Source: Allosediminivita pacifica | Lineage (GTDB): Bacteria; Pseudomonadota; Alphaproteobacteria; Rhodobacterales; Rhodobacteraceae | DNA: 64,000 nucleotides | Reading direction: 5' to 3' | Assembly: GCF_003054175.1 (NCBI RefSeq) | Contig: NZ_QBKN01000001.1 | Span: 62,001 to 126,000, forward strand | In this document: positions 1,284-51,182 of the stretch, in pieces | How positions within the stretch are numbered: position 1 is the first letter of the stretch | How the letters are laid out: every line of letters starts with the position of its first letter | The notes under the pieces: model-generated | The model's input: only the letters and a program-made list of their open reading frames with translations | Told to the model about the DNA's origin: nothing | Database searches by the model: none | Position numbers and translations under genes: made by a program

Positions 1284-3524
1284 TCAGGTCAGTTCGCGCA
1301 GGTAGTCCATCACCGCCGGCCGTACGGTTTGTTCTCCGTCCGCGATGGCCCTATCGATGACCCCCCGCAGGTCGTCGAGCCGGGTGCGCATCATGAGGCT
1401 CTTGACCGGGCCGATGGAGGCCGGGCGCATGGAGAGCATCCGGAAGCCCATCGCGGCCAGCACCAACGCCTCGATCGGCCGGCCGGCGTCCTCGCCGCAG
1501 AAGGACAGCGGCGTGCCGCTCGTTTCGCAGCGCTCCACGATGCGTTCGAGGAAGGACAGGAACGAGGCGTTGAGCGTGTCGTAGCGACGCCGGACCAGCT
1601 CGTTTTCTCGATCTGCGGCAAAGAAGAACTGCTTGAGATCGTTGCCGCCCACCGAGAGGAAATCGACCTCGTCGAAAAGCTTCTGGCTCGCGAAGCCGAG
1701 GCTCGGGGTCTCGAGCATGGCGCCGATCTCGAGTTTCTCGGGCAGGGTGTGGCCCAGCCGTTCCTCGCGGGCGACGGCCTTGCTGACTTCTTCGCGGGCG
1801 GCCAAGAATTCCTCGTACTGCGCGATGAAGGGGAACATGACGGCGAGCGGCCGCCCGTTGGCGGCGCGCAGGAGCGCCTGAAGCTGCATTCGCAGCACGC
1901 CCGGCTTGTCGAGCCCGACGCGGATCGCGCGCCAGCCGAGCGCGGGGTTCGGCTCGTCTATGGGCTTCATGTAGGGCAGCACCTTGTCGGAGCCGATGTC
2001 GAGCGTGCGGAACACCACGCGGCGGTCTTCGGCCGCGTCGAGAACGCGCGAATAGAGCTGCACCAGCTCGGTCCGGCGGGGCATCTTGTTGCGGATCAGG
2101 AACTGCAGCTCGGTGCGGAACAGACCGACGCCCTCGGCCCCCGATCCGTGGAGCGAGGGGAGGTCCGCCATGAGCCCGGCGTTCATGTGCAGCCCGATCC
2201 GGGTACCGCAGGCGCTGATGCAGTCGGTATCGCGGATCGAGGCATAGCGTTCCTGGGCCTTGGCCTGCATGGCCATCTTGTCGCGGAAGGCGTTGTTGAC
2301 GGAATCGTCGGGGCGCAGGTGCACCACGCCCTGGTCGCCATCGACCAGGATTCGATCCCCGTTCAGCGCCTCGTTGGTGATCCGTTCAGCGTGGATGACC
2401 AGCGGGATCGCCAGTGCGCGCGCCACGATGGCGGCGTGACTGCCGACCGAGCCTTCTTCGAGCACCACGCCCCTGAGCTGGCGACCGTATTCGAGCAGTT
2501 CCCCGGGGCCGATGTTGCGGGCGATGAGGATCGGGTCGTCGGGCATCTCGGAGCCGGTCTCGCGGCCCTGGCCGGTCAGGATGCGCAGCAGGCGGTTCGA
2601 CAGGTCATCGAGATCGTGCAACCGGTCGCGCAGGTAGGCGTCGGTCGCCTGCGCGAGTCGGGCGCGGGCCTGGCTCTGTTCCTTCTCGACGGCGGCCTCG
2701 GCCGAGAGGCCGCGTGCGATGTCCTCTTCCATGCGACGCAGCCAGCCCTTCGAATTGGCGAACATCCGGTAGGCCTCGAGCACCTGGGCCTGATCACCCT
2801 CGGCCCCGGCACCGGCCAGCATCTCGTCGACGCCGATCCGAAGCCGGTCGACGGCCTCGACCAGCCGCTTGCGTTCGCTTTCGGGGTCGTCGGCGACCAT
2901 GTTGGTGACCACGACGCGGGGTTCGTGCAGCCAGACATGGCCCATGGCCGCGCCCTCCTGTCCGGTGGTGCCGCGGAACAGGACCGCCTGCGTGTGCCGC
3001 GCGCTGAGGGCCGCGCCCTCGCCGACAAAGGCGCCGAGTTCGGCCATCTCGGCCAGCACCATGGCGACGACCTCGAGCGCGTAGACTTCGTCGTCGGTGA
3101 AGCGGCGCTGGTGCTTGGACTGCACGACGAGTACGCCGAGCTTTTCGCCCAGACGCTGGATCGGCACGCCGAGAAAGCTGGAATAGATCTCCTCGCCCGT
3201 CTCGGGCATGTAGCGGAAGCCGCGCTCTGCGGGGGCATCGGCGGTGTTCACGATCTTGCCAGTCCGGGCGACGCGACCGACAAGGCCTTCGCCCAGTCGC
3301 ATGCGTGTCTGGTGAACGGCCTCGGGCTTCAGGCCCTCGGTCGCGCAGAGTTCGAGCGTTTCGTCGTCGCGGAAGAGGTAGATCGAGCAGACCTCGGTGC
3401 CGATGGAATCGGCCGTGAGGAAGGTGATCTTGTCGAGCCGGGCCTGTCCGGCGGCCTCTTCGGCCATCGTGTCGCGCAGGCGCCGCAGCAGTTTGCGGCT
3501 TTCGCTTTCAAGACCATCCGCCAT
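1284..3524 (-). CDS. ptsP: Phosphoenolpyruvate-protein phosphotransferase PtsP (EI-Ntr)
   Basis: This is enzyme I of the nitrogen phosphotransferase system: it takes phosphate from PEP onto a histidine and passes it to NPr, a regulatory rather than a sugar-uptake chain. The 746 residues contain an N-terminal GAF domain (about 17-165), the HPr-binding/phosphohistidine part with GSHAAIVAR (active His about 363), and a C-terminal PEP-binding TIM barrel ending with the conserved SFCGEDAG and LSMRPASIG segments. The start ATG 3524 gives the usual family length and begins MADGLESESRK; GGGAGGAG lies about 12 bp upstream, a slightly long spacing. It shares orientation with the chemoreceptor and lysC upstream, but the 195-bp gap suggests a separate promoter. 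Confidence 0.95.
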   Translation of the reverse strand: MADGLESESRKLLRRLRDTMAEEAAGQARLDKITFLTADSIGTEVCSIYLFRDDETLELCATEGLKPEAVHQTRMRLGEGLVGRVARTGKIVNTADAPAERGFRYMPETGEEIYSSFLGVPIQRLGEKLGVLVVQSKHQRRFTDDEVYALEVVAMVLAEMAELGAFVGEGAALSARHTQAVLFRGTTGQEGAAMGHVWLHEPRVVVTNMVADDPESERKRLVEAVDRLRIGVDEMLAGAGAEGDQAQVLEAYRMFANSKGWLRRMEEDIARGLSAEAAVEKEQSQARARLAQATDAYLRDRLHDLDDLSNRLLRILTGQGRETGSEMPDDPILIARNIGPGELLEYGRQLRGVVLEEGSVGSHAAIVARALAIPLVIHAERITNEALNGDRILVDGDQGVVHLRPDDSVNNAFRDKMAMQAKAQERYASIRDTDCISACGTRIGLHMNAGLMADLPSLHGSGAEGVGLFRTELQFLIRNKMPRRTELVQLYSRVLDAAEDRRVVFRTLDIGSDKVLPYMKPIDEPNPALGWRAIRVGLDKPGVLRMQLQALLRAANGRPLAVMFPFIAQYEEFLAAREEVSKAVAREERLGHTLPEKLEIGAMLETPSLGFASQKLFDEVDFLSVGGNDLKQFFFAADRENELVRRRYDTLNASFLSFLERIVERCETSGTPLSFCGEDAGRPIEALVLAAMGFRMLSMRPASIGPVKSLMMRTRLDDLRGVIDRAIADGEQTVRPAVMDYLRELT

Positions 3525-3719
3525 CTGGGCCGTCGGCTCCTCCCGGGTGCGTTCCGGGCACCAGCTATAGGCGAGTTGAGCGGGGAAGGGAAAGCGGATT
3601 GCTTGCCGCAGCGCAATGGCGTCCATGCTGCGTTGCGGCATTCGGGGGCCTTGCCCGCTTCGGCAGCACGCGGGGGTCGTGGTCCGGACCGCGGGCCAAG
3701 GCCGCGCTTACGGGAGGGC

Positions 3720-5243
3720 TCAGGAGGCTGCTTCCTCGCCGATCGGCAGGTCCGCGCGGCGGCGGCCGTATTGCTCGCCGTTGTCCTTGCGCCACTTCTC
3801 GACGATGCTCGCGCGCGTGTCGTTCTCGGGCTCGTCGGTCTGCAGCGTGCCCATGAGCTTCTGCACCCGGTCCGCGTCGGCATGAAGCGCGTTCATGCGG
3901 TCGTTGGTCTGGTCGACCATCGCCGCGTTCTGCTGCGTGATGGTGTCGAGCTGGGTGACGCTGACGTTCACCTCGTCGAGGCCGCGGGACTGCTGGCGGC
4001 TGGCTTCGTTGATCTCGCTCGAGAGCTTGGAAACCTGTTCGAAGCTTTGGATCAGGCCGGTAAGGCTGGTCTTCGCGCGGCCTACCAGCGTCACGCCGTG
4101 TTCCACCTGGTCGCGGCTTTCGCTGATCAGCACCTTGATCTCGCGCGCGGCCTCGGAGGAGTGGGCGGCGAGCGAGCGGACTTCGCCCGCGACGACGGCA
4201 AAGCCGCGGCCTGCCTCTCCGGCACGGGCGGCTTCGACCCCGGCGTTGAGCGCGAGCAGGTTGGTCTGGAAGGCGATGTCGTCGATGAGGGTCGTGATCT
4301 GGGAGATCTGCTCGGACGATGTCTTGATCCCGTCCATGGCCTGGGCGGTTTCCTCGACGATGGAGGCGCTGTTTCCCGCTTCGTGCGCGGCTTCGCGCGC
4401 AACGCCATCGGCGTTGACCGTGTACTTGGATGTTTCGGCCACGCTGTTGGTGATCTCTTCCATGGCGGCGGCGGTTTCCTCGAGCGAGGCGGCCTGGCTG
4501 TTGGTGCGCTGCGACAGGTCCTCGGCCGAGCCGCGAACCTCTTCGACAAGCGCCATGAGCGTGGTCATGGCCTCCTTCACGTTGCGCAGCACGTAGCTCA
4601 ACCGGTCGATGGCGCCATTAAGCTTCTCGCGAAGGAACTCGTACCTGACCGGGAAATCGCTCACCTCGGAGGAGGGGATGCGATAGGTCAGGTTACCTGT
4701 GGCGATGGCCTCGATCGCGAGGTCGAGGTGGTGAACTGCGAGGGTCTGTTCCTCGTTCCAGACCTGGAAGGTGACGGTGGTGACCCGTTCGGTGTCGAGC
4801 GCGAAGGCGCGGCTGAGCGCACCGATGAGCTTCTTGGTGCGCTGGCGCTTGCCCGGGCGGAAGCCCTTGCAGCACTCGTCAACGAGCATGTCCATCATGC
4901 AGGCGGAAGCATCGGCGTAGGCCGACATGTAGATGTGCAGCGGCAGGTCGATGCGGGCATGCGTGCGGCCGATCCGTTCGATCGAGGCTTCGTAGTCGGC
5001 ATCGAACGTGCCGGAGAAGAGCCGTTCCCAGTGTTTCTTCTGGGCGTTGCGGGCGCCGCGAACCATGTCGTCGCCGTCGAAGAAGCCCGCGGCCTCCGGG
5101 TCGGCCAGTGCGCGGGCGTAGAAGCGTTCCAGTACCTTGTCGACCTTGGGCATCAGGATGCGGCCGGCCTCGGCGACATGGGCGCGCGTGGCCTCGTTCA
5201 GGTCGAACTGCTGCAGTTTCTTGTTCAGGTCATCGCTGCGCAA
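3720..5243 (-). CDS. Globin-coupled methyl-accepting chemotaxis protein
   Basis: This is a soluble chemoreceptor of 507 residues with no transmembrane helix. Residues about 10-160 form a protoglobin domain; [10 protein letters not shown] carries the likely proximal heme histidine (about His95), as in HemAT aerotaxis sensors. A HAMP-like segment follows near 195-245. The C-terminal half is an MCP signalling domain with the hairpin tip [19 protein letters not shown] (about 365-385). The start is TTG 5243, chosen because GAGGAGG lies 7 bp upstream, whereas the longer frame has no ribosome site. By family knowledge it senses oxygen or another diatomic gas and signals to CheA. No che genes are nearby, so it must work with kinases encoded elsewhere. 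Confidence 0.9.
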
Positions 5244-40276: not shown

Positions 40277-40800
40277 ACGCGCGGGATCTTGTCCTGACGG
40301 GGCAGGGCGTCCGGTTCGACGGGCGGCTCTGGCCCTGCACGGTGGGGCGCGGGGGCGTGACCGCCGACAAGCGCGAGGGCGACGGCGCCACGCCGGTGGG
40401 CGCGCATGACATCGTCGGCATGCTCTACCGGCCCGACCGGATCGCCAAGCCCGCCGGTTGGGCGGTGCCGATCCGGCCCGGGGACCTGTGGTCCGACGAT
40501 CCCGAGCACGAGGATTACAACCTCATGGTGCGCGCGCCCTACCACGCCAGCCACGAGGCGCTGCGGCGGGCCGATCCGCTTTACGACTTGGTGATCGTGA
40601 CCGACTGGAACTGGCCCGACGCGCAGCCCGGGGCCGGGTCGGCGATCTTCCTGCATCGCTGGCGCAGGCCTGGCTACCCGACGGCGGGCTGCGTGGCCCT
40701 CGATCCGGTGGACCTGCGCGAGATCGCGGCGCGGATCACGCCGGAGACGCGGCTGATCGTTCCCGAGAGTCTTGCGGGGCGGCTGCCGAGAGGCGCCTGA
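40273..40800 (+). CDS. L,D-transpeptidase catalytic domain protein (YkuD-like)
   Basis: A 175-residue protein with the YkuD active site [16 protein letters not shown] (His128, Cys140). It begins with [22 protein letters not shown] and [15 protein letters not shown], the usual front part of the small YbbR/ErfK-unlike group. No signal peptide or membrane anchor is visible, so its location is unclear; true L,D-transpeptidases act in the periplasm. It overlaps the LLM gene by 4 bp (ATGA) and the convergent GntR gene by 65 bp. Confidence 0.88.
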
Positions 40801-41422
40801 AGCTCATGGAGATATGGGCGCGGCGCAGCAGCGCCGCCGCCCGCATGTCGCCCGCCTCGAGCGCGCCCTGAAGCTGGCGCAGCTCGTCCGCGAAGATCGC
40901 GCATTCGTGGGCGAGGTCCATGCCCGGGATCGACTGGAGCCAGATCCGCGCGGTCTGGTAGAACAGCCGGTCGGTGACCTCGCGCAGGGCGGGGTTGTCG
41001 ATCAGCGTCAGCGTGAAGGCGTGGTGGTCGATGTTGAGCGCGGCGAAGGCCCGCGCGTGGGGGGCCTCGGCGAGCGCTTCACCCCGGGCCACGAATTCGG
41101 TCATGCGGGCCAGCCGTTCGGCGGTCATCGGCGCGGGCGAAAGCGTGCCGGCAAGCTGCGCCAGTTCCATCCGTAGATCGTAGACCTGTGCCATCTCGCG
41201 CAGGTCGATCTCGGTCACCAGCGTGCCGACGCCGTGGCGCGACTGCACCAGCCCCTCGTCCTCGAGCCTGGCCAGCACCCGGCGCAGCGGCGTGCGGGAA
41301 ATGCCGAACTCGGCGGCCAGCTGTTCCTCGGAAAGCCGCGTGCCGGGCGGGTAGTCGAGCAGGCAGATCCGGGCCCGAAGCTCGGTATAGAGCCTCAGGT
41401 GCCGATCCGCCGCGCCGGTCAT
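40736..41422 (-). CDS. GntR family regulator (FadR/FCD type)
   Basis: A 228-residue regulator. The winged helix is GTRLSEEQLAAEFGISRTPL followed by RRVLARLEDEGLVQSRHGVG (residues about 25-65). The C-terminal FCD domain has metal-ligand-like His/Asp positions (ALNIDHHAFTLTLIDNPALREV). It is the last gene of a three-gene operon with the M20 deacylase and the creatinase-like hydrolase and overlaps the deacylase stop by 4 bp. Two palindromes of GntR type (TTGTGTACAA, TTGTGCACAA) lie upstream of the operon, so it probably represses the operon and the divergent transporter until its ligand appears. The extreme C-terminus overlaps the transpeptidase gene. Confidence 0.9.
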   Translation of the reverse strand: MTGAADRHLRLYTELRARICLLDYPPGTRLSEEQLAAEFGISRTPLRRVLARLEDEGLVQSRHGVGTLVTEIDLREMAQVYDLRMELAQLAGTLSPAPMTAERLARMTEFVARGEALAEAPHARAFAALNIDHHAFTLTLIDNPALREVTDRLFYQTARIWLQSIPGMDLAHECAIFADELRQLQGALEAGDMRAAALLRRAHISMSFRRLSAAAPQDSRERSAASPA

Positions 41423-42579
41423 GCCTCGAGCGATGCTGCCAACCCCTGAAGCATGTCGAGGCATTGCGACAGCTGGTCCCGCGCGATGAACTCGTCGGGC
41501 TTGTGGGCCTGCTCGATGCTGCCCGGGCCGCAGACCACGACGCTCATCCCCATGCCCTGGAAGAGCCCCGCCTCGGTGTTGAAGGGGACAAGCTCGCAGG
41601 TGTTCTGGCCGGTCAGGCGAGCGACGAGATCGCGGGCGGCGTTCTCTTCCATGGGTTCGAGCGAGGTGACCTCGCCGATGACCTCGGTCGCGATGTCGGC
41701 CTTGGGGTGCACGGCGCGCATGGCAGGCAGGAGCGTGCCCTCGACGTAGGCGCCGATGGCGTCCTTCACGAACTCGGCGTCGCCCGCCTGCATGGGGCGC
41801 ATTTCCCATTCGACCTCGGCGCGGCCGGGGATGACGTTGTGCGCCACGCCGCCCGACAGCCGCCCGATGTTGAGCGTGGTCCACGGCGGATCGAAGCGCG
41901 AGGAGGCGGGGGCGCGGGTCTTGAGCTCTTCGGCCAGTTCGAGCAGGCGGGTCACGTAGCGCACGGCGTAGGAGACCGCGTTCACGCCGCGGTCGGGGGC
42001 CGATCCGTGGCCTTCGAGGCCGGTGAAGCGCGCGGTGTATTCGCAGCAGCCCTTGTGGCCCTCGATGATGCGCATCATCGTCGGTTCGCCCACGATGGCG
42101 GTGGCGGGGCGGTAGCCGCGCTTTTGCAGCTCCGGCACCAGCGCCTGCGCGCCAAGACAGCCGACCTCTTCGTCGTGGGTGAAGCAGAAGTGCACCGGGC
42201 GCTTCAGATCCATCTTCGACAGCGGCTCGGCCATGGCGAGCGCGCAGGCGATGAAGCCCTTCATGTCGCAGGACCCGCGCCCGTAGAGCAGCCCGCCCTC
42301 TTCGCGCACGGCGAAGGGATCGGTGGTCCAGTCCTGGTCGGCCACGGGCACCACGTCGGAATGGCCCGACAGCACCACGCCGCCCTCGATGTCGGGACCG
42401 ATGGTGGCAAAGAGGTTGGCCTTGGAGCCGTCCTCGTTCTGGAACAGCTCCACCCGCGCGCCGTGGCGTTCCAGCCAGCCGCGCATGTAAGCCATCATGT
42501 CGAGGTTGCTGTCGGCCGAGATGGTCGGAAAGGCGATCAGCTCGGCCAGGATGGCCTCTGTCCGCTCCTGCAGGGTCAT
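41419..42579 (-). CDS. M20 family deacylase (ArgE-like)
   Basis: A 386-residue metallohydrolase of the ArgE/DapE/ACY1 family. Zinc and catalytic residues are visible: VVLSGHSDVVPV (His73, Asp75), GRGSCDMKGF (Asp105), FTHDEEVGCLG (Glu137, Glu138) and VGEPTMMRIIEGHKG. GLEGHGSAPDRGVNAV begins the dimerisation domain. It would be annotated acetylornithine deacetylase, but its position between a creatinase/ectoine-hydrolase-like gene and a GntR gene argues for a catabolic N-acyl (probably N-acetyl) diamino-acid or amino-acid deacylase. It overlaps the upstream gene by 4 bp. Substrate not proven. Confidence 0.9.
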   Translation of the reverse strand: MTLQERTEAILAELIAFPTISADSNLDMMAYMRGWLERHGARVELFQNEDGSKANLFATIGPDIEGGVVLSGHSDVVPVADQDWTTDPFAVREEGGLLYGRGSCDMKGFIACALAMAEPLSKMDLKRPVHFCFTHDEEVGCLGAQALVPELQKRGYRPATAIVGEPTMMRIIEGHKGCCEYTARFTGLEGHGSAPDRGVNAVSYAVRYVTRLLELAEELKTRAPASSRFDPPWTTLNIGRLSGGVAHNVIPGRAEVEWEMRPMQAGDAEFVKDAIGAYVEGTLLPAMRAVHPKADIATEVIGEVTSLEPMEENAARDLVARLTGQNTCELVPFNTEAGLFQGMGMSVVVCGPGSIEQAHKPDEFIARDQLSQCLDMLQGLAASLEA

Positions 42580-43772
42580 TGCTTCACGTACATCTGGCGG
42601 GGGCGGTTGCAGAAGCATTCCGCCGGGCCGCTGTCCTTGATCAGGATGCTTTCGGTGATTTCCAGACCCCAGTCGGACATCCACAGGCCCGGCATGAAGT
42701 GGAAGGTCATGCCGGGTTTCAGCACGGTCTCGTCCTCGGCCCGGAGCGAGATGGTCCGCTCGCCCCAGTCGGGCGGGTAGGAGATACCGATGGGATAGCC
42801 GCAGCGCGCACCGCGTTCGATGCCCGCGCGTTCCAGCGGGGCAGCCAGCGCCTGGGCGATGTCGCAGGCGCGGTTGCCGGCGCGGGCGGCGTCGAGGCCG
42901 GCCTCCAGCCCCTCGACCAGCGCCGCCTCGGCCGAGCGGAAGATGTCCGGCGGATCGCCAAGGAAGATCGTCCGGCAGAAGGGGGCGTGGTAGCGACGGA
43001 AGCAGCCCGAGATCTCGAAGAAGGTCGCCTCGCCCTTGCGGAAGGGCTCGCCATCCCATGTCAGGTGCGGCGCGGCGGCGTCCGAGCCCGAGGGCAAGAG
43101 CGGCACGATGGCCGCGTAGTCGCCCCAGCCTTCTTCCGTGCCGATCAGCGCGTCGCGCTGGATCTCGGCCACCACCTCGTTCTTGGGCACGCCGGGCTCG
43201 ACGCGTTCCAGCAGGCCATCGACGATCTTTTCCGAGATCCGCGCCGCCTTGCGCATGAAGTCGATCTCCTCGCGCGACTTCACGCCACGTTCCCAGTTCA
43301 CCAGCGCCGTGGCGTCGACGATCGTGGCCTTGGGCATGTTCTCGAGCAGCGCGAGATAGGCCTTGGCCGAAAAGTAGTAGTTCTCGAGCTCGACCCCCAG
43401 GCGCGGTGCCTCGTAACCCATGACGGTCAGACGGTAGGCCAGGTCCTCCATCGGGTGCAACTCGGTGTTCTGCACGTAGGGGTCGGCGTAACCGAAGACG
43501 TCATCGTCGCTCATCCAGACGGTGCGGACGGCGCCGTTCGTGTCCTGGTTGCGGCCCCACCAGACCGGGTCGCGGTCGTGGAAGACCAGCACGCCCTGAT
43601 GCACGTAGAAGGACCAGCCGTCATAGCCCGTCAGCCAAGCCATGTTGGACGGATCGGTGACCAGCAGGACCTCGATCCCCCGTCGGTCCATCGCCGCACG
43701 GGTTTGTCGCAAGCGGCGTTGGTACTCGGCCTCGGAGAAGGGAAGATCCTTCTGGAAACGGTGCTGACGCAT
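42576..43772 (-). CDS. Creatinase/ectoine hydrolase-like (DoeA-like) M24 protein
   Basis: A 398-residue pita-bread fold protein of the M24 superfamily. The N-terminal domain has LLVTDPSNMAWLTGYDGWSF, recalling ectoine hydrolase DoeA. In the C-terminal domain the metal-binding Asp pair of M24 peptidases is missing: the region reads ATFFEISGCFRRYHAPFCRT. A creatinase-like His (about His236, in DAAAPHLTW) and Glu residues (Glu253; LEITESILI) remain, so a metal-free C-N hydrolase like creatinase or DoeA is more likely than a peptidase. AAAGGAGAAG precedes ATG 43772. It is the first gene of the operon. Ectoine or another cyclic amidine or guanidino compound is a possible substrate. Confidence 0.87.
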   Translation of the reverse strand: MRQHRFQKDLPFSEAEYQRRLRQTRAAMDRRGIEVLLVTDPSNMAWLTGYDGWSFYVHQGVLVFHDRDPVWWGRNQDTNGAVRTVWMSDDDVFGYADPYVQNTELHPMEDLAYRLTVMGYEAPRLGVELENYYFSAKAYLALLENMPKATIVDATALVNWERGVKSREEIDFMRKAARISEKIVDGLLERVEPGVPKNEVVAEIQRDALIGTEEGWGDYAAIVPLLPSGSDAAAPHLTWDGEPFRKGEATFFEISGCFRRYHAPFCRTIFLGDPPDIFRSAEAALVEGLEAGLDAARAGNRACDIAQALAAPLERAGIERGARCGYPIGISYPPDWGERTISLRAEDETVLKPGMTFHFMPGLWMSDWGLEITESILIKDSGPAECFCNRPRQMYVKQ

Positions 43773-43809
43773 GGGCTTCTCCTTTGGGGCTGCGGGGCCA
43801 GCTAGGCAC

Positions 43810-43819
43810 TTGTGTACAA
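43810..43819. promoter_or_regulatory. GntR operator-like palindrome 1
   Basis: TTGTGTACAA fits the GntR-family pattern TNGTnnACNA (half-site TTGT/ACAA). It lies 38 bp upstream of the start codon of the hydrolase gene. Confidence 0.6.
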
Positions 43820-43906
43820 CAGGGGATGCCGGAAAACGACACCCGCACGCTGAAAATGGACGTAAACCGCAAATCCGGCGCGACCACGCCTGATTGTGCC
43901 GTGTTG

Positions 43907-43916
43907 TTGTGCACAA
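43907..43916. promoter_or_regulatory. GntR operator-like palindrome 2
   Basis: TTGTGCACAA is a perfect 10-bp palindrome with the same half-sites as palindrome 1, 97 bp away (about nine helical turns), so a loop between two bound dimers is possible. Confidence 0.6.
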
Positions 43917-44212
43917 TAGAAACGGTACATTTCGCGCTCCTAAGGTCGCTTACCTAGCGGGACTGGTCGTCATTGAGCCTTGCGCGGTTTGCCAGAAGCT
44001 GCTTCCATTCAGGCAAGGCCCCGACATGGCACGCCCGCCAACGGCCTCTGCAGACGGTGGAGTGCGGTGCATGAAAACTGCGCACACTCCCGTAAATCGC
44101 CTTTGCGACAAGGGATTTCCGTCGATGCAGTTGCAACGCCGGAGGATGCGCGCTTTAGTCGGATCAACAAAGCGGAGCAAAAATCCGCAGCCAACAAAAC
44201 AGGGAGTTGCTC

Positions 44213-45319
44213 TTGCTGGATCAGGGCACTGACGACGCTTTCGTCGCGTTTGAACGCGTGCAGAAAAGCTACGATGGCGAAACGCTGGTCGTGAAGGACC
44301 TCAACCTCTCGATGCCCAAGGGCGAGTTTCTCACGATGCTCGGGCCCTCCGGCTCCGGCAAGACAACCTGCCTCATGATGCTCGCCGGGTTCGAGACCGC
44401 CACCCACGGCGAGATCAAGCTCGACGGCCAGCCCATCAACAACATCTCGCCACACAAGCGCGGCATCGGGATGGTGTTCCAGAACTACGCGCTCTTCCCG
44501 CACATGACCGTGGCCGAGAACCTGTCGTTCCCGCTCGAGGTGCGCAAGATCGGCAAGTCCGACCGCGAACAGAAGGTCAAGCGCGCGCTCGACATGGTCC
44601 AGATGGGCGCCTTCGGCGGCCGCCGCCCGGCGCAGCTTTCGGGCGGCCAGCAGCAGCGGATCGCGCTGGCCCGCGCGCTGGTGTTCGAACCGGAACTGGT
44701 TCTCATGGACGAACCGCTGGGCGCGCTCGACAAGCAGCTGCGCGAGCACATGCAGTTCGAGATCACCAACCTGGCGCACCAGCTTGGCATCACCACGGTC
44801 TACGTGACCCACGATCAGACCGAGGCGCTGACCATGTCGGACCGCGTCGCCGTCTTTGACGATGGCCGCATCCAGCAGCTCGACGCGCCGGACCGGCTTT
44901 ACGAGGAGCCGCAGAACAGCTTCGTCGCCCAGTTCATCGGCGAGAACAACACGCTCGAGGGCAAGGTGCTCGAGATGACCGGCAGCGATCGCTGCGTCGT
45001 CCAGCTGGACGATGGCCAGAAGATCGAGGCCAAGCCCGTGAACGTCGAGAAGGCCGGCGACCGCACCCGCGTGTCGATCCGCCCCGAACGTGTCGAGTTC
45101 AACAAGGACCGGATGCAGGAAGGCGCCCTGACGCTCAAGGCCGAGGTGCTCGAGTTCATCTACATGGGCGACATTTTCCGGACCCGCCTGCGGGTGGCCG
45201 GCAACGACGATTTCGTCATCAAGACGCGTAACGCGCCCGACCAGGTGCGCCTCACACCCGGCAGCCAGATCGAAATCGGCTGGATGCCCGAGGACTGTCG
45301 CGCGCTCGACGCGTCCTGA
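44213..45319 (+). CDS. Polyamine-type ABC transporter ATP-binding protein
   Basis: A 368-residue ATPase like PotA/PotG. Walker A is GPSGSGKTT (about 44-52), signature LSGGQQQRIALARAL, Walker B VLMDEPLGALD, switch TVYVTHDQTEAL; a C-terminal TOBE domain follows (from about 275). The start is TTG 44213 with AGGGAG 6 bp upstream. It energises the importer formed with the binding protein and two permeases downstream. The substrate class (spermidine/putrescine-like) is a family label only; related systems import many amines, opines and acids. Confidence 0.92.
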   Translation: MLDQGTDDAFVAFERVQKSYDGETLVVKDLNLSMPKGEFLTMLGPSGSGKTTCLMMLAGFETATHGEIKLDGQPINNISPHKRGIGMVFQNYALFPHMTVAENLSFPLEVRKIGKSDREQKVKRALDMVQMGAFGGRRPAQLSGGQQQRIALARALVFEPELVLMDEPLGALDKQLREHMQFEITNLAHQLGITTVYVTHDQTEALTMSDRVAVFDDGRIQQLDAPDRLYEEPQNSFVAQFIGENNTLEGKVLEMTGSDRCVVQLDDGQKIEAKPVNVEKAGDRTRVSIRPERVEFNKDRMQEGALTLKAEVLEFIYMGDIFRTRLRVAGNDDFVIKTRNAPDQVRLTPGSQIEIGWMPEDCRALDAS

Positions 45320-45443
45320 TCCGATCCGAAGTGTCGCGCAACCCGCCAGGGGATGGACGGGCCGCGCGATTCAATGCGGTGCCGGACAAAAGACGCCCGT
45401 GATCCGGTACCCCAAGTCAAACGGGCAACTTAGGGAGCAACAC

Positions 45444-46556
45444 ATGAAACTCACCAAGACGCTTCTGGCCACCACGGCGCTGACCGTGTCCGCCGGTGCA
45501 GTCGCCGCACAGGAAATGGCCGACAGCATGACGCTCGTCAGCTGGGGCGGTGCCTACCAGAACAGCCAGCAACAGGCCTACGTGGTGCCCTATCTCGAGA
45601 TGCACCCCGAGGTTTCCGTGACCTGGGATGAAAGCTCGAACGAGGCCGTGGCCAAGCTGCGCGCCATGAACGAGGCCGGCAACATCACCTGGGATCTCGT
45701 GGACGTGGTGGCCGCCGACGCCATCCGCCTCTGCGACGAAGGCCTGGCGATGGAATACGATCCCGAAGACCTTCTCGCCGAAGGCGACGACGGCACCTCG
45801 GCGGAAGACGACTTCGGCGACCTGATCGTCTCCGACTGCTTCATTCCGCAGATCGTCTACTCCACGACGTTCGGCTACCGCACCGACATGGTGCCCGAGG
45901 GCGTCGAGCCGCCGAGCGACATCTGCGACGTCTGGGATCTTGAGACCTACCCGGGCAAGCGGTCGCTCGAGAAGCGTCCGATCAACAACATGGAATGGGC
46001 CCTTCTGTGCGACGGCGTCGCCAAGGAAGACGTCTATGACGTACTCGAGACCGAGGAAGGCCAGGACCAGGCGCTCGCCAAGCTCGACGAGATCAAGGAC
46101 GACGTCATCTGGTGGTCGGCCGGCGCCGACACGCCGCAGCTTCTGGCTGACGGCGAAGTCTTCATGGGCTCGACCTACAACGGTCGTCTGTTCTCGCTCA
46201 TCGAGGAGCAGGATCAGCCCGTGGGCATGATGTGGGACGCACAGGTCTTCGATCTCGATGGCTGGATCATCCCCGAGGGTCTCGGCGATGCAGAGCTGGC
46301 CCGCGTGAAGGACTTCGTGAAGTTCGCCACCGACACCCAGCGTCTGGCCGATCAGGCGGCCTACATCTCGTACGGCCCCGCGCGCGACAGCTCGGCCCCG
46401 CTCGTGGGTCAGCACGCCGAACTGGGCATCGACATGGCGCCGCACATGCCGACCGACCCCGACAACTCGCAGAACACCTTCGTGTACAACTACGAGTTCT
46501 GGGCGGACTACCGCGACGACATCGACGCGAAGTTCCAGTCCTGGCTGGCGCAATAA
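45444..46556 (+). CDS. Polyamine-type periplasmic binding protein
   Basis: A 370-residue PotD/PotF-like receptor with signal peptide MKLTKTLLATTALTVSAGAV (cleavage near VAA/QE). Then MTLVSWGGAYQNSQQQAYVV, the typical start of this family, followed by an unusually acidic stretch near 110-125 (DPEDLLAEGDDGTSAEDDFG). The ligand region includes LADGEVFMGSTYNGRLFSL. The acidic middle could favour a cationic ligand or reflect a marine salt-adapted surface. AGGGAG lies 6 bp before ATG 45444. Stable hairpins follow the gene, often used to keep the binding-protein part of the mRNA abundant. Confidence 0.92.
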   Translation: MKLTKTLLATTALTVSAGAVAAQEMADSMTLVSWGGAYQNSQQQAYVVPYLEMHPEVSVTWDESSNEAVAKLRAMNEAGNITWDLVDVVAADAIRLCDEGLAMEYDPEDLLAEGDDGTSAEDDFGDLIVSDCFIPQIVYSTTFGYRTDMVPEGVEPPSDICDVWDLETYPGKRSLEKRPINNMEWALLCDGVAKEDVYDVLETEEGQDQALAKLDEIKDDVIWWSAGADTPQLLADGEVFMGSTYNGRLFSLIEEQDQPVGMMWDAQVFDLDGWIIPEGLGDAELARVKDFVKFATDTQRLADQAAYISYGPARDSSAPLVGQHAELGIDMAPHMPTDPDNSQNTFVYNYEFWADYRDDIDAKFQSWLAQ

Positions 46557-46564
46557 GCCACTGA

Positions 46565-46619
46565 CCGGCCGGGCCTTCGGGGCCGGCCCTTCGGCCTGCC
46601 GGGTACGCCCGGCAGGCCA
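46565..46619 (+). terminator. Two strong hairpins after the binding protein gene
   Basis: The first hairpin has a TTCG loop and GGCC-rich arms (about 46565-46590). The second is perfect: GGCCTGCCGGG (46593-46603) and CCCGGCAGGCC (46608-46618) with loop TACG. No T run follows, so partial termination or 3'-end protection inside the operon is more likely than full termination. Confidence 0.6.
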
Positions 46620-46632
46620 GACGGAGACGGCG

Positions 46633-46920
46633 ATGCCAAAGGGCTACATCATCGGCCATATCTCGGTGCACGATCCCGAGGGCTACCGCGACTATGTCGA
46701 GCGCGACACGCCCATCCTTCTCGGTCTCGGCGGACGCTTCATCGTACGCGGCGGCGCCTCGGAGACGGTGGAGGGCGAAAGCGGTGACCGGCACGTGGTG
46801 ATCGAGTTCGACGACTACGAGACCGCACGGCGCGCCTACAACGATCCCGAATATCAGGCCGTTGCCGACATCCGCCGGCGCACCGCCACATCCACAATCA
46901 TTCTCGTCGAGGGCAGCTGA
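46633..46920 (+). CDS. DUF1330 family protein
   Basis: A 95-residue ferredoxin-like (dimeric alpha/beta barrel) protein: YIIGHISVHDPEGYRDYVER, GGRFIVRGGASETVEGE, VIEFDDYETARRAYNDPEYQ. DUF1330 members have no settled function. It lies between the binding protein and permease genes of the transporter, 3 bp before the permease start, so it is translated with the system and may act on the imported compound. GGAGA precedes ATG 46633. Confidence 0.9.
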   Translation: MPKGYIIGHISVHDPEGYRDYVERDTPILLGLGGRFIVRGGASETVEGESGDRHVVIEFDDYETARRAYNDPEYQAVADIRRRTATSTIILVEGS

Positions 46921-46923
46921 TCC

Positions 46924-48621
46924 ATGACCGATGCCACCTCTGATCCGGACAAGATCGAGGCGCCCACGCCCGACAACGCGCTCCGGGCCGCCGACGCCGC
47001 CGATGGCCCCATGCTGGCCGCGGACGGTACCCCGCTCAAGAAGTCGCTGAACCGGGCGCTGCGCGCCCAGAAGCTGCGGGCGCTGTTGCTGATCGCGCCG
47101 CTGCTGATCTTCGTGCTGCTGACCTTCATCGCGCCGATCGTCGACATGCTGTTCCGCTCGGTCGAGAACCAGATCGTCTCGGAAACGCTGCCGCGCACCA
47201 CCCGCGCGCTGGCAGACTTCGATGCCGGCACGGGCGAGATCCCGGGCGAGCCGGTCTACGAGGCCGCCTACTACGACATTTTCCTCGCCTCCGAGCGCAA
47301 GGAACACACGCGGCTCGGCTCGCGGCTGAACTACGAACAGACCGGGGCCTCGTCGCTCTTCCGCCGCTCCGGCCGCGGCCTCGACGACATCGGCGAGGTC
47401 TACCAGGACCAGTTCGAGGACCTGGACGAGAACTGGGACGAGGCCGAACCCTGGGCCGAGATGATGGGCTCGCCCGAATGGCTCAACGCGCAGCGCGGCT
47501 GGACCGAGGAAGACGGCGCCATGCCGGAGTTCGAGCTGCGCGAGGGCGTGGCCGAGGTGCTGCCGAAGACCGCCGAGTTCTACGAGATTTTCGCCCGCTT
47601 CACGCAGGTCGAGGACGAGGACAGCCCGCTCGAGGAAGAGCCGTGGAGCATGGTGCACACCGCGCTCTACCAGGATCTCGCCGCGGGCGACGTGTCGGGC
47701 TACGACGGTCCGCACGCGGAGATGCTGCAGGCGGCGGATGAGCTGGTCGACAGCCCCGATTTCGAGACCGTCTCCTTTACCGACGGCTTCGAGGAGGTGG
47801 ACGAGGACTGGGCCGACCCCGAGATCTGGAACACCATCAAGATGTACGCCCCGCCCTATACCACGGGCTACTTCCTGAACGCCGTGGACATGGAAAAGAC
47901 CGTCGACGGCCCGCAGCTTCGGGACGAGGACGAACGCATCTACGGGCTGCTCTTCAAGCGCACGATGTTCATGTCCATGGTCATCACCTTCAGCTGCATC
48001 GCGCTGGGCTATCCGGTGGCCTACCTGCTGTCGAACCTGCCCGCGCGCAGCGCCAACCTGCTGATGATCCTCGTGCTTCTGCCGTTCTGGACCTCGCTTC
48101 TGGTGCGGACTTCGGCCTGGAAGGTCATGCTGCAGCAGCAGGGCGTCATCAACGACGTTCTGGTCTGGCTGGGGCTGGTGGCCGACGACTCGCGATTGGT
48201 AATGATCAACAACCAGTTCGGCACGATCGTGGCCATGACCCACATCCTGCTGCCCTTCATGATCCTGCCGATGTATTCGGTCATGTCGACGATCCCGCCC
48301 AGCTTCGTCCGCGCGGCACGTTCGCTCGGGGCGACCAACTGGACGGCCTTCTGGCGGGTCTACTTCCCGCAGTCGGTGCCGGGCATCGGCGCGGGGAGCA
48401 TCCTCGTCTTCATCCTGTCGATCGGCTACTACATCACGCCCGAGATCGTCGGCGGCACCACCGGCACCTTCATCTCGAACCGGATCGCCTACCACATCTC
48501 CAGCTCGCTCAACTGGGGCCTCGCGGCCGCGCTGGGCACCATCCTGCTGGTCGTGGTGCTGGTTCTCTACTGGGCCTACGACCGGATCGTGGGCATCGAC
48601 AACGTGAAACTGGGGGGCTGA
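46924..48621 (+). CDS. Polyamine-type ABC permease with a large insertion
   Basis: A 565-residue permease, about twice the usual PotB length. After a cytoplasmic start comes helix 1 (LLLIAPLLIFVLLTFIAPIV, about 55-75). A strongly acidic segment of about 265 residues follows before the next helix (MSMVITFSCIALGYPVAYLL, about 348-367). The rest is a normal PotB core with the EAA loop FVRAARSLGATNWTAFWRVY (about 459-478). The insertion should lie in the periplasm and has no recognised fold; it may dock the binding protein or be salt-adapted filler. Starts 3 bp after DUF1330; the next permease starts 1 bp after its stop. Confidence 0.9.
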   Translation: MTDATSDPDKIEAPTPDNALRAADAADGPMLAADGTPLKKSLNRALRAQKLRALLLIAPLLIFVLLTFIAPIVDMLFRSVENQIVSETLPRTTRALADFDAGTGEIPGEPVYEAAYYDIFLASERKEHTRLGSRLNYEQTGASSLFRRSGRGLDDIGEVYQDQFEDLDENWDEAEPWAEMMGSPEWLNAQRGWTEEDGAMPEFELREGVAEVLPKTAEFYEIFARFTQVEDEDSPLEEEPWSMVHTALYQDLAAGDVSGYDGPHAEMLQAADELVDSPDFETVSFTDGFEEVDEDWADPEIWNTIKMYAPPYTTGYFLNAVDMEKTVDGPQLRDEDERIYGLLFKRTMFMSMVITFSCIALGYPVAYLLSNLPARSANLLMILVLLPFWTSLLVRTSAWKVMLQQQGVINDVLVWLGLVADDSRLVMINNQFGTIVAMTHILLPFMILPMYSVMSTIPPSFVRAARSLGATNWTAFWRVYFPQSVPGIGAGSILVFILSIGYYITPEIVGGTTGTFISNRIAYHISSSLNWGLAAALGTILLVVVLVLYWAYDRIVGIDNVKLGG

Positions 48622-48622
48622 G

Positions 48623-49816
48623 ATGTCGGACGCAGTGGTCATCACCGAAACCAGGACGCTTCCCTACAGCTTCACCCTTCCGGTGATCGGCGCGGCGGGG
48701 GCCTTCTTCGGCATCTTCGTCGGCGCGGCGCAGGGCTCGACCCTGATGGGCATAATCGGGGGGGCGGTCATCTGCGCCGCCATCGCCTGGCTCGCGCTTC
48801 AGGTCTTCGGCACCGATCAGGAAAAGACCTTCCGCTGGGCCATCGTGGCGGTCGCTGCCGTCGCGGGCTTCCTGCTGGGCGGCCTGCCGGGGCTGGTCGT
48901 GGGCGCGCTCTTCGGGTGGTTCATCGGCTGGTTCACCTACTGGATCGGGCGGTCGCGCTACCGGGCTTTCCTTCCGCCCTATCTGACCGGCGGGCAGGTG
49001 CTGTGGCACTACAGCTTCCGGGTGCTCTGCGGGGCGATCTTCGTCTTCCTCATCACACCGATCCTCGTGGTGATGCCGCTCAGCTTCAACGCCGAGAACT
49101 TCTTCACCTTCACGCCCGAGATGCTGTCCTTCGACCCCGAGGGCTACAGCCTGCGGCACTACCGCGACTTCTTCACCTCCAATGACTGGCAGCAGGCGCT
49201 CTGGAACTCGGTCAAGATCGCGCCGATGGCGACATTGCTCGCGGTCAGCTTCGGCACGCTGGCGGCCATCGGCCTCAGTTCCGAACACGTGCCCTTCCGC
49301 CGCGCGATCATGGCAATCCTGATCTCGCCGATGATCGTGCCGCTGATCATCTCGGCTGCCGGCATGTACTTCTTCTACAGCCGCATCGGGCTGCAGGGCA
49401 CCTACCTGGGCGTCGTGCTGGCGCACGCGGCGCTGGGGATTCCCTTCGTCATCATCACCGTCACGGCGACGCTGGTGGGCTTCGACCGCTCGCTGACGCG
49501 CGCAGCGGCGAACCTCGGGGCGGACCCGATCACCACCTTCTTCCGGGTGCAGATGCCGCTGATCCTGCCGGGCGTGATCTCGGGCGGGCTCTTCGCCTTC
49601 ATCACCTCGTTCGACGAGGTGGTCGTGGTGATATTCGTGGGCTCGGCCAACCAGCAGACGCTTCCCTGGCAGATGTTCACCGGCCTGCGCGAGCAGATCT
49701 CGCCGACGATTCTCGCCGTGGCGACGATCCTCGTGGCGATCTCCATCGCGCTGCTCAGCACGGTCGAGATCCTGCGCCGCCGCTCCGAGAAGATGCGGGG
49801 CATGTCACCGAGCTGA
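48623..49816 (+). CDS. Polyamine-type ABC permease with extra N-terminal helices
   Basis: A 397-residue PotC-like permease. The first 125 residues contain about four extra hydrophobic helices (IGAAGAFFGIFVGAA, LMGIIGGAVICAAIAWLAL, AIVAVAAVAGFLLGG, LVVGALFGWFIGWFTYWIG) before the usual first helix (GAIFVFLITPILVVMPLSF, about 137-155). The EAA loop is SLTRAAANLGADPITTFFRV. PotC normally has about 265 residues. With the long partner permease, this points to a distinct transporter subgroup. A strong terminator follows 28 bp later. Confidence 0.9.
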   Translation: MSDAVVITETRTLPYSFTLPVIGAAGAFFGIFVGAAQGSTLMGIIGGAVICAAIAWLALQVFGTDQEKTFRWAIVAVAAVAGFLLGGLPGLVVGALFGWFIGWFTYWIGRSRYRAFLPPYLTGGQVLWHYSFRVLCGAIFVFLITPILVVMPLSFNAENFFTFTPEMLSFDPEGYSLRHYRDFFTSNDWQQALWNSVKIAPMATLLAVSFGTLAAIGLSSEHVPFRRAIMAILISPMIVPLIISAAGMYFFYSRIGLQGTYLGVVLAHAALGIPFVIITVTATLVGFDRSLTRAAANLGADPITTFFRVQMPLILPGVISGGLFAFITSFDEVVVVIFVGSANQQTLPWQMFTGLREQISPTILAVATILVAISIALLSTVEILRRRSEKMRGMSPS

Positions 49817-49844
49817 CCCCACGCGAAAATTGTCGCAAAACATG

Positions 49845-49875
49845 ACCGCCGCGCCCCAAAAGGCGCGGCGGTTTT
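49845..49875 (+). terminator. Terminator of the ABC transporter operon
   Basis: ACCGCCGCGCC (49845-49855) pairs with GGCGCGGCGGT (49862-49872) over CCAAAA, followed by TTT. It ends the transporter transcript. Confidence 0.85.
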
Positions 49876-49934
49876 CACGCTTTGGAAACGTCTTGCCGCC
49901 ATGTTCCCTGTGTCTAGGCCCACAGGATCCCGAC

Positions 49935-51182
49935 ATGACGCATCACGATCAAACCCTCGCCGCTCAGTCCGGCAGTACGGCCTCGGGCGAGGTGCCCTTC
50001 GACCCCGCCGACCTGTTCTATTCGCGTACCGACGAACGGGGCGTCATCATCGAGGGCAACGGGATCTTCCGCCGGATCTCGGGCTACGGCTGGTCCGAGC
50101 TCAAGGGCGCGCCACACAAGATCATCCGCCACCCGGATTCGCCCAAGGGGCTGTTCCACCTCTACTGGCAGCGGCTCAAGGCCGGGAAATCGGTCGTCGC
50201 CTACGTCAAGAACCGTGCCAAGGACGGGCGGCTCTACTGGGTGATAGCGCTCGCCTGGAACATCGAGGGCGGCTACATAGCCATCCGGGCCAAGCCCCAT
50301 TCCGAGCTCTTCGACAAGGTCCGCGACATCTACCGGGTGCTCCGCGAGGAAGAGGACCAGGGCCTTTCCCCCGAACGCAGCGCTGCCCGTCTGCAGGAGG
50401 AAATCGCCAAGCTCGGCTTCCAATCCTACGATTCCTTCATGGCTGCCGCGCTCGCGGCCGAGCTGAAGTCGCGCGCCGATCTTATCGGCGTGCCGGTGAC
50501 CCAGTTGCAGAGCCGCTTCCTCGAGATGCACGAGACCATCCTGCGCATCCGCAAGGAAACCGACGAGATGACCGAGATCTTCAAGGCCATCCGCACAGTG
50601 CCCATGAACATGCGCATCATCGCCTCGCGGCTCGAGAATGCGGGCGGGCCGATCAGCGCGATCTCGGTGAACTACGGCCAGATGCTGGACGAGATGGCCA
50701 TGTGGGTCCGTGAATTCGTCGATGGCGACAAGAGCACCTTTTCGCGCATCTACCACTCGATCGAGCATGGGCAACTGGTGGTTAATGCCGCGGCGCTGCA
50801 GGAAGAGATGTCGAACCTCTTCGAGGAGGATCTGAAGGGTGCGGCCAATACCGAGCACCTTGACCACGACCGCAAGCTGCTCGTCGACGAGGCCGCGAAT
50901 TTCAAGAAGGTCGCGGCGCAATCGCTCAAGGTGGTCGAGACCGAGGCCGCGCGGCTGAGCCGCAGCGTGCTGGACATGAAGCGCTACGTGACCGGGCTCA
51001 GTTCCACGCGGATGATGTGCAAGATCGAGAGTGCGACGCTCTCGGGGTCTGGCAACGCACTCGTCGGTATCGTCGACCAGCTCGACAACTGCCAGGATGA
51101 GATCGAGGCGCGCCTTGCCCGGATCGTCGAGCACAACACCGTGATCCAGAACAACACCGCCATGCTGCGGGCAAGCGACTGA
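49935..51182 (+). CDS. Soluble PAS-domain protein, Aer-like sensor without MCP tip
   Basis: A 415-residue cytoplasmic protein. The N-terminal PAS domain is of Aer type: GNGIFRRISGYGWSELKGAP, HKIIRHPDSPKGLFHLYWQR, VAYVKNRAKDGRLYWV (about 25-120). The remaining 290 residues are predicted long helices (for example ETILRIRKETDEMTEIFKAI). The MCP signalling hairpin (EAARAGE-type), HAMP and kinase motifs are absent, and no membrane helix is seen. It may be a sensory adaptor or a chemoreceptor relative that lost its tip. ATG 49935 is preceded by GGATCCCGAC, a weak ribosome site. Confidence 0.8.
   Translation: MTHHDQTLAAQSGSTASGEVPFDPADLFYSRTDERGVIIEGNGIFRRISGYGWSELKGAPHKIIRHPDSPKGLFHLYWQRLKAGKSVVAYVKNRAKDGRLYWVIALAWNIEGGYIAIRAKPHSELFDKVRDIYRVLREEEDQGLSPERSAARLQEEIAKLGFQSYDSFMAAALAAELKSRADLIGVPVTQLQSRFLEMHETILRIRKETDEMTEIFKAIRTVPMNMRIIASRLENAGGPISAISVNYGQMLDEMAMWVREFVDGDKSTFSRIYHSIEHGQLVVNAAALQEEMSNLFEEDLKGAANTEHLDHDRKLLVDEAANFKKVAAQSLKVVETEAARLSRSVLDMKRYVTGLSSTRMMCKIESATLSGSGNALVGIVDQLDNCQDEIEARLARIVEHNTVIQNNTAMLRASD

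Follow-up and report, generated by a model that had tools for sequence, protein, structure and literature searches.

A gene cluster at positions 40736–49816 of a 64,000-nucleotide stretch of Allosediminivita pacifica DNA (the window; contig NZ_QBKN01000001.1) is, in our judgement, likely to be a rebuilt (hydroxy)ectoine breakdown module in which the second enzyme has been replaced and a different importer is used. That ectoine is broken down by way of DoeA, DoeB, DoeD and DoeC is established, according to the available portions of four papers (PMC8739950, PMC5924519, PMC7192451, PMC13188858). In the window, a minus-strand operon encoding a DoeA-like M24 hydrolase, an M20 deacylase and an FCD-type GntR regulator faces a plus-strand Pot-type ATP-binding cassette (ABC) importer. 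A preliminary description made from the letters alone had reported this arrangement, and its coordinates and gene order hold, including the DUF1330 gene within the polyamine-type importer and the 4-bp overlaps that M24 shares with M20 and M20 with GntR:

40736–41422, minus strand: third operon gene, a GntR regulator of the FCD type (Pfam GntR 69.9 bits, FCD 36.6 bits); its ATG start at 41422 gives a 4-bp overlap with the M20 stop; proposed to take the part of EnuR
41419–42579, minus strand: M20 (ArgE-like) deacylase, over the PRK07522 and TIGR01892 cut-offs; proposed N-acetyl-2,4-diaminobutyrate deacetylase
42576–43772, minus strand: M24 DoeA-like protein, predicted from TIGR02993, 6TWJ and the tree to be a (hydroxy)ectoine hydrolase
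43809–43820, no strand: predicted operator, 2 mismatches to GTTGTGCACAAC, immediately upstream of the M24 start
43906–43917, no strand: predicted operator, 1 mismatch to GTTGTGCACAAC, inside the divergent intergenic region
44207–45319, plus strand: PotA-like ABC ATPase of the importer (TIGR01187 382 bits, cut-off 355.6)
45444–46556, plus strand: periplasmic binding protein of the polyamine/γ-aminobutyrate (GABA) type (SBP_bac_8 187 bits)
46633–46920, plus strand: DUF1330 small protein within the importer operon (PF07045 107.9 bits)
46924–48621, plus strand: long PotB-like permease, 565 amino acids (BPD_transp_1 56.5 bits; PRK09497 161 bits, below the cut-off of 348)
48623–49816, plus strand: PotC-like permease, 397 amino acids (BPD_transp_1 47.8 bits; PRK09500 150 bits, below the cut-off of 326)

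We favour an ectoine route with replaced parts because M24–M20 pairs recur within eut, doe and Ehu clusters, because M20 and DoeB nearly exclude each other among genomes with DoeA, because other genes of the route lie on other contigs of this genome and DoeB was not found there, and because two named strains hold everything in one block. From the gene content, phylogeny, linkage, replacement pattern and conserved site that we observed, we predict the following substrates and activities. The ABC importer would take up ectoine and/or 5-hydroxyectoine; the M24 protein would hydrolyse the ectoine ring to N-acetyl-L-2,4-diaminobutyrate, from which the M20 protein of the ArgE family would cleave the acetyl group in place of the unrelated DoeB/EutE; and a DoeD-like aminotransferase and an aldehyde dehydrogenase would convert diaminobutyrate to aspartate. 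N-α-acetyl-diaminobutyrate is N-α-acetylornithine minus one methylene and thus a chemically close substrate. EutB and EutC, encoded on a second contig (C12), and a EutA-like protein on a third (C19) would serve hydroxyectoine, and the FCD-type GntR, replacing EnuR, would control the divergent promoter through a GTTGTGCACAAC site.

The M20 protein belongs to Pfam Peptidase_M20 and lies over both ArgE-family cut-offs (PRK07522, 468 bits against 412; TIGR01892, 382 bits against 297.7), and its alignment to 7RSF, which we take to be E. coli ArgE, keeps the His, Asp and Glu positions that are presumably the metal ligands of that enzyme. M24 was searched for in 394 genomes, each from a different genus of the family, and 255 of them have a match at E up to 1e-60. 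The limits, chosen after the lists had been seen, were 1e-130 for M24 of the DoeA type, an exponent of 160 or better for the window type (a value of 1.9e-160 in G004 was counted in) and, for M20, a gap between strong matches at about 1e-122 or better and the next at 1e-112 or weaker. With these limits, DoeA-type M24 occurs in 239 genomes, strong M20 in 160 and both in 156, so that M20 is present in 156 of the 239 genomes with DoeA-type M24 against 4 of the 155 without; window-type M24 occurs in 147 genomes, 133 of which have M20. DoeB was searched in 149 of the genomes, which hold DoeA-type M24 in 94, M20 in 62 and DoeB over the cut-off in 21, making M20 about three times as common as DoeB. 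Here M20 accompanies DoeA in 61 of 94 genomes and is found in 1 of the 55 others (for DoeB, 21 and none, respectively). Of the 94 with DoeA, 59 have M20 only, 19 DoeB only, 2 both (G013 and G119) and 14 neither; where the M24 is of the window type, M20 is present in 51 of 55 genomes and DoeB in 1.

The replacement of DoeB by M20 is therefore strongly supported by genomics, in line with the preliminary description, which had put an M20 enzyme in second place, and the M20 protein is very probably the deacetylase of the (hydroxy)ectoine route. For annotation, this means that an ArgE-like gene beside a DoeA-like one should probably not be assigned to arginine synthesis. In principle, the use of an M20-fold protein for the second step probably has a precedent, because the best distant match here to DoeB_2 (NF038260; 329 bits, cut-off 550) is itself a Pfam Peptidase_M20 protein. 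This model has seven matches at E up to 0.001 in the genome, none over 550 bits and none in the window region. The window M20 is probably a third, independent recruitment to this step, as it has no NF038260 match and belongs to the ArgE subfamily.

The M24 protein is, from its sequence, a DoeA/EutD paralogue, and we hold with high confidence that it acts on ectoine or hydroxyectoine. Its nearest solved relative is DoeA (6TWJ, 519 bits), and its scores of at most 62 bits to prolidases and at most 41 bits to creatinases led us to reject either identity; the preliminary description had listed a tree placement firmly inside the prolidases among the findings that would refute its proposal. Against TIGR02993 (ectoine_eutD), the first DoeA type, it scores 588 bits, compared with 198 bits for the DoeA_2 model. 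The enzyme looks metal-free, as that description had also said, because Glu and Pro stand where prolidase 5CDL has two Asp that we take to be metal ligands. A quickly built tree has 90 rows: 87 proteins from the window or the fetched loci, a DoeA reference and two outgroups, with ten duplicate short loci dropped along with L042, L089 and L151, which gave no gene call. In it, the window protein falls in a clade of 57 rows with a Shimodaira–Hasegawa-like approximate likelihood ratio (SH-aLRT) of 99. M20 lies directly downstream in 48 of these rows, neither enzyme is adjacent in 9 and DoeB in none; because the pairing recurs in this way, it is more than chance. A second set of 27 rows (SH-aLRT 89) comprises 11 that are DoeB-adjacent and 16 with neither, with no M20-adjacent row; the M20-adjacent L090, L139 and L150 and the 6TWJ reference lie outside both sets. 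Eight DoeA-like M24 proteins about 53–57% identical to that of the window (L141, L143, L145, L146, L149, L152, L153 and L156) form a subclade with neither DoeB nor M20 adjacent, and six of them directly follow an apparent Pst–PhoU–PhoB block, recognised from gene sizes and N-termini only.

Genes in the fetched loci were called with our own codon-score script rather than an annotation program, and neighbouring genes were identified by tblastn comparison with cluster members, using identity limits of our own choice, looser for M20 loci away from M24. M24–M20 pairs occur within eutB/eutC/asnC/ssd/doeD/atf clusters, two of them with Ehu genes. In L069, the only Ehu-bearing locus scanned, EhuB, EhuC, EhuD, EhuA and EutB are all over their cut-offs and EutC is just under the cut-off of one model and over that of another; the block, which also encodes an AsnC-type regulator, an aldehyde dehydrogenase and a DoeD-like aminotransferase, faces M24–M20–GntR. 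Subsets of the ectoine cluster genes are present in L084, L060, L061, L062, L072, L074 and L078. Across the 38 M24-clade loci longer than 12 kb, EutA, EutB, EutC or DoeD is nearby in 20, a Pot importer in 17, Ehu in 2 and EnuR in none, with the eut-linked and Pot-linked members interleaved in the M24 clade; the 11 DoeB loci have EnuR in 7 and a Pot-type importer in none. Nineteen M20 loci away from M24 were fetched, and nine have clear partners: EutB and DoeD with or without EutC (L183, L184), AsnC and DoeD (L174, L178, L179), DoeD (L181) or a Pot-type importer (L170, L171, L172). The parts also reshuffle, M20 lying with eutB and atf while M24 adjoins the importer (L183/L032 and L184/L034). 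In one further genome (L144, G036), a Pot-type importer and EutA stand beside a DoeA-type M24 of the other tree set, without M20.

The remaining steps were sought in the A. pacifica genome itself, which is rated 99.5% complete and in which the route genes are split across three contigs. C12 carries eutB, eutC, asnC, ssd-like and atf-like (78%) genes ordered as in other clusters, with one extra gene between the last two. At the end of C19 lie genes for UehA (76% identity to the UehA from a cluster of the DoeB type), a UehB-like protein, UehC, a Usp-like protein and the EutA-like protein (214.6 bits, below its cut-off of 318). The sole match to DoeB/EutE (TIGR02994) scores 72.9 bits against a cut-off of 402.7, on C7, so we rejected a DoeB elsewhere in the genome. 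The preliminary description had named canonical doeB, doeC and doeD elsewhere as a sign of ordinary ectoine use; doeC- and doeD-like genes are indeed present, and doeB was not found. Likewise, the best score to the EnuR/EhuR MocR regulator (NF052286) in this genome is 267.6 bits against a cut-off of 480, and EhuB has no match over its cut-off. Stretches of C7 (L101, L117), C22 (L102) and C46 (L116) with weaker DoeB, M24 or aminotransferase matches contain no recognised part of the route. That description had also stated that EnuR, DoeC/DoeD and ectoine transporters are absent from the window: none, Ueh and Ehu genes included, was seen in 40–50 kb, the remainder of the window not having been scanned gene by gene. 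With no other candidate for the second step recognised in this genome, the route looks complete if the M20 protein performs it. Downstream of uehABC–usp–eutA on C19, where eutBCDE would be expected, an open reading frame (L169, 4491–6926) resembles pieces of unrelated genes, by eye with a TctB-like start and an acyl-CoA-dehydrogenase-like end, which suggests that the remainder of the canonical operon has been lost there.

The importer belongs to a different family from EhuABCD and UehABC, as its Pfam families show. Its ATPase passes the potA cut-off and scores 170 bits against ehuA (cut-off 345.4), its permeases are far under the PotB and PotC cut-offs and its binding protein has no NCBIfam match at E up to 0.001. 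We examined the best 80 of 584 relatives from a search with the binding protein as the only query. One or more pathway genes lie within 10 kb in 49 of these loci, M24 or M20 in 46 and EutA, EutB or EutC in 10, and at the identity limits applied none showed a neighbouring Ueh, Ehu, EnuR or DoeB. One-block clusters, to a large extent collinear with the window, are present in Carideicomes alvinocaridis SCR17 (L196) and Pseudooceanicola nanhaiensis DSM 18065 (L258); in them GntR–M20–M24 faces eutB–eutC–asnC–ssd–atf–potA–binding protein–DUF1330–permease–permease. L196 is collinear with the window from 41.1 to 55.6 kb, gene by gene, except that the eutB-to-atf block stands between M24 and the ATPase, that two extra genes (259 and 408 amino acids) are unmatched and that the PAS-domain gene at 49830–51182 of the window is absent. 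Because of this collinearity, and because the genes of the block are on C12, the window looks like an L196/L258-type locus with its eutB-to-atf block elsewhere. Linkage of the two gene sets in other genomes, which the preliminary description had proposed as a check, is real but incomplete. The DUF1330 gene between the binding protein and the permease recurs in many, though not all, importer operons.

The nearest solved relatives of the binding protein are 8JV1 (204 bits) and then GABA-binding 9D57 (147 bits), and the GABA-site residues, as given in the available text of the 9D57 paper (PMC12999171), were mapped with a six-residue numbering offset taken from matching letters. Like the GABA-binding Atu4243 and Pf622 (4EUO, 9D57), which are of the same family, the window protein keeps the Arg and Asp of the site (R249 and D273, in the numbering of window:45441–46553), one Trp and the Tyr equivalent to Y264, whereas three wall residues of the pocket differ (Thr to Tyr, Phe to Ile and Trp to Tyr). 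This suggests a small zwitterion other than GABA, such as ectoine, as the predicted ligand, and the Pot-type importer, which genomics supports moderately, probably carries ectoine or hydroxyectoine.

A number of observations weigh against the assignment of these proteins to ectoine breakdown. The M24 score to TIGR02993 lies 25 bits below the curated cut-off of 613, as do those of L069 (580.7 bits) and L196 (589.2 bits). In four genomes M20 occurs where no M24 of the DoeA type exceeds the limit: the M24 matches of G147 are partial, G212 and G236 are incomplete, and G248 is rated 99% complete. The Fisher values, 2.6e-16 for M20 with DoeA and 3.2e-9 for M20 against DoeB, ignore shared ancestry. 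Ten of the 19 M20 loci away from M24 show no partner or weak ones only, and 14 of the 94 DoeA genomes lack both M20 and DoeB at the limits applied, so that there may be yet another deacetylase. Passing the curated ArgE-family cut-offs would also fit an ordinary acetylornithine deacetylase of arginine synthesis that lies beside a DoeA-like gene by chance. An arginine enzyme is not expected to track DoeA and avoid DoeB, as this one does (156 of 239 genomes against 4 of 155, and joint occurrence in 2 of 94), nor to follow M24 in 48 of 57 clade rows; we rejected this identity and regard it as very improbable. More substantial, and still improbable, is a parallel pathway in which the M24 clade and M20 open another cyclic amidine or N-acyl diamino compound, with products converging on diaminobutyrate or aspartate. 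The separation of the M24 clade from DoeB-linked DoeA and the M24 score below the DoeA cut-off would fit it, as would 19 of the 127 positions invariant in DoeB-linked rows, which differ or vary in the clade; the other 108 are kept in at least 90% of it and count among the evidence for a (hydroxy)ectoine hydrolase. The retention of UehABC and the presence in G013 of an M24–M20 pair besides a DoeA–DoeB set point the same way. A second pathway would, however, be expected to come on top of the first, whereas M20 and DoeB hardly ever coexist; moreover, Ehu, EutB and EutC lie beside M24–M20 within the same clade and the eut- and Pot-linked members interleave. The preliminary description had left both possibilities standing; ectoine use with replaced parts is well supported, and another compound is not needed to explain the locus. 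More boldly, the importer and the M24 clade may now serve a related cyclic amidine not yet described, or acetyl-diaminobutyrate itself.

For the importer, the ectoine assignment is less certain. The enzymes could serve ectoine while the importer carries another small zwitterion or a polyamine (GABA, diaminobutyrate and acetyl-diaminobutyrate are examples), whose products join the route; we consider this possible though unlikely. UehABC in the same genome, contrary to an expectation of no second ectoine importer, means that the Pot system is perhaps not needed for ectoine. Among the best 80 of 584 relatives, 31 loci, including 23 of the 69 with more than 19 kb examined, have no pathway gene within 10 kb, and loci of this kind occur in Thalassospira, Maritalea and Hoeflea. 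The pocket residues hardly differ between 50 linked and 28 unlinked binding proteins, and the solved relatives bind GABA or carry polyamine-binding names, 8JV1 being named a spermidine/putrescine-binding protein. On the other side, the importer genes follow eutB–eutC–asnC–ssd–atf on the same strand in the single blocks of L196 and L258, the best 80 loci show none of Ueh, Ehu, EnuR and DoeB, and in several genomes with M20 and M24 apart the importer lies with one of the two, all of which favours ectoine uptake.

The regulator also differs from the canonical one. GntR is near 11 of the 38 M24-clade loci with more than 12 kb. With up to two mismatches allowed, the palindrome GTTGTGCACAAC lies upstream of M24 in 20 of the 22 loci that have a linked GntR and in 1 of the 28 that have none. 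The latter are the fair control, since the same GntR-linked loci served both to find the motif and to count it. The operator set includes ten of the 80 importer loci, hand-picked mostly for showing GntR, and leaves out L022 (a duplicate) and L024 (a short flank with no GntR seen); dinucleotide-shuffled sequence contains the motif at up to two mismatches in about 2%. We are reasonably confident that GntR controls the divergent promoter through these predicted operators. A single GntR regulon over all three contig places is not supported, because the stretches examined on C12 and C19 contain no GTTGTGCACAAC match with up to two mismatches.

In comparison with the textbook route, as laid out in the available text of two surveys (PMC8739950, PMC13188858), the system described here shares DoeA-type ring opening, deacetylation, the aminotransferase, the aldehyde dehydrogenase, EutB/EutC and the AsnC regulator. 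It differs in having an ArgE-like M20 protein for DoeB/EutE, an FCD-type GntR with EnuR not found, a Pot-type ABC importer besides or instead of Ueh/Ehu, and genes on three contigs. The importer occupies a position inside ectoine catabolic clusters, as EhuABCD and UehABC/TeaABC do, and is of a PotA/SBP_bac_8/PotB/PotC-like ABC family, not a tripartite ATP-independent periplasmic (TRAP) transporter. With ArgE (7RSF) the M20 protein has in common the subfamily profile and the presumed metal-ligand positions, whereas its context is ectoine breakdown rather than arginine synthesis. The nearest precedent, DoeA_2/DoeB_2 (NF038259/NF038260), probably also has an M20-fold second step; here, by contrast, the M20 is of the ArgE subfamily with no NF038260 match at E up to 0.001, and the M24 is of the first DoeA type. 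AbgB we likewise take to be an M20 protein. DoeA_2/DoeB_2 probably corresponds, by a link of our own, to the Methylotuvimicrobium doeBDAC type in the available text of PMC7192451, and Bacillota clusters without eutE carry abgB according to the available portion of a 2026 survey (PMC13188858).

The locus thus probably represents a known pathway in a widespread variant form, in which the second enzyme is replaced and the importer class and the regulator are probably new. On balance we think that in most ectoine-eating members of the family the textbook scheme is the minority, with an ArgE-type deacetylase, a Pot/GABA-type importer and a GntR–GTTGTGCACAAC switch used instead. In the genomes sampled, the M20 version is commoner than the DoeB version. 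Surveys would largely miss it because, in their available text, one is anchored on adjacent eutD/eutE pairs in 363 genomes (PMC8739950) and the other centred on genomes with EutD, EutE and EutB (PMC13188858); the importers named for Alphaproteobacteria in the latter are of the Ueh or Ehu type only. A review counts, in its available text, 122 of 539 predicted ectoine consumers with no importer gene in the neighbourhood and allows that more importers may still be found (PMC5924519); the Pot-type system is a concrete candidate. In the accessible parts of the open-licence papers searched, we found no description of an ArgE-subfamily M20 enzyme or a Pot-type importer in ectoine use, nor of the GntR operator. 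The variant is also relevant to the recycling of a nitrogen-rich solute by bacteria in the ocean. When the entire region was searched against plasmids, 209 records were returned, none covering 80% of it and the best two covering 17%.

Other M24 hydrolases also occur in ectoine clusters. L084 holds a second one between asnC and eutC (2999–4147), nearest to DoeA_2 (180 bits, cut-off 575), which gives two different M24 hydrolases in one cluster. A PepQ-like M24 recurs beside EutA in L060, L062, L071 and L078, three of which also encode a protein resembling diaminopropionate ammonia-lyase, and these proteins are possibly further hydroxyectoine enzymes.

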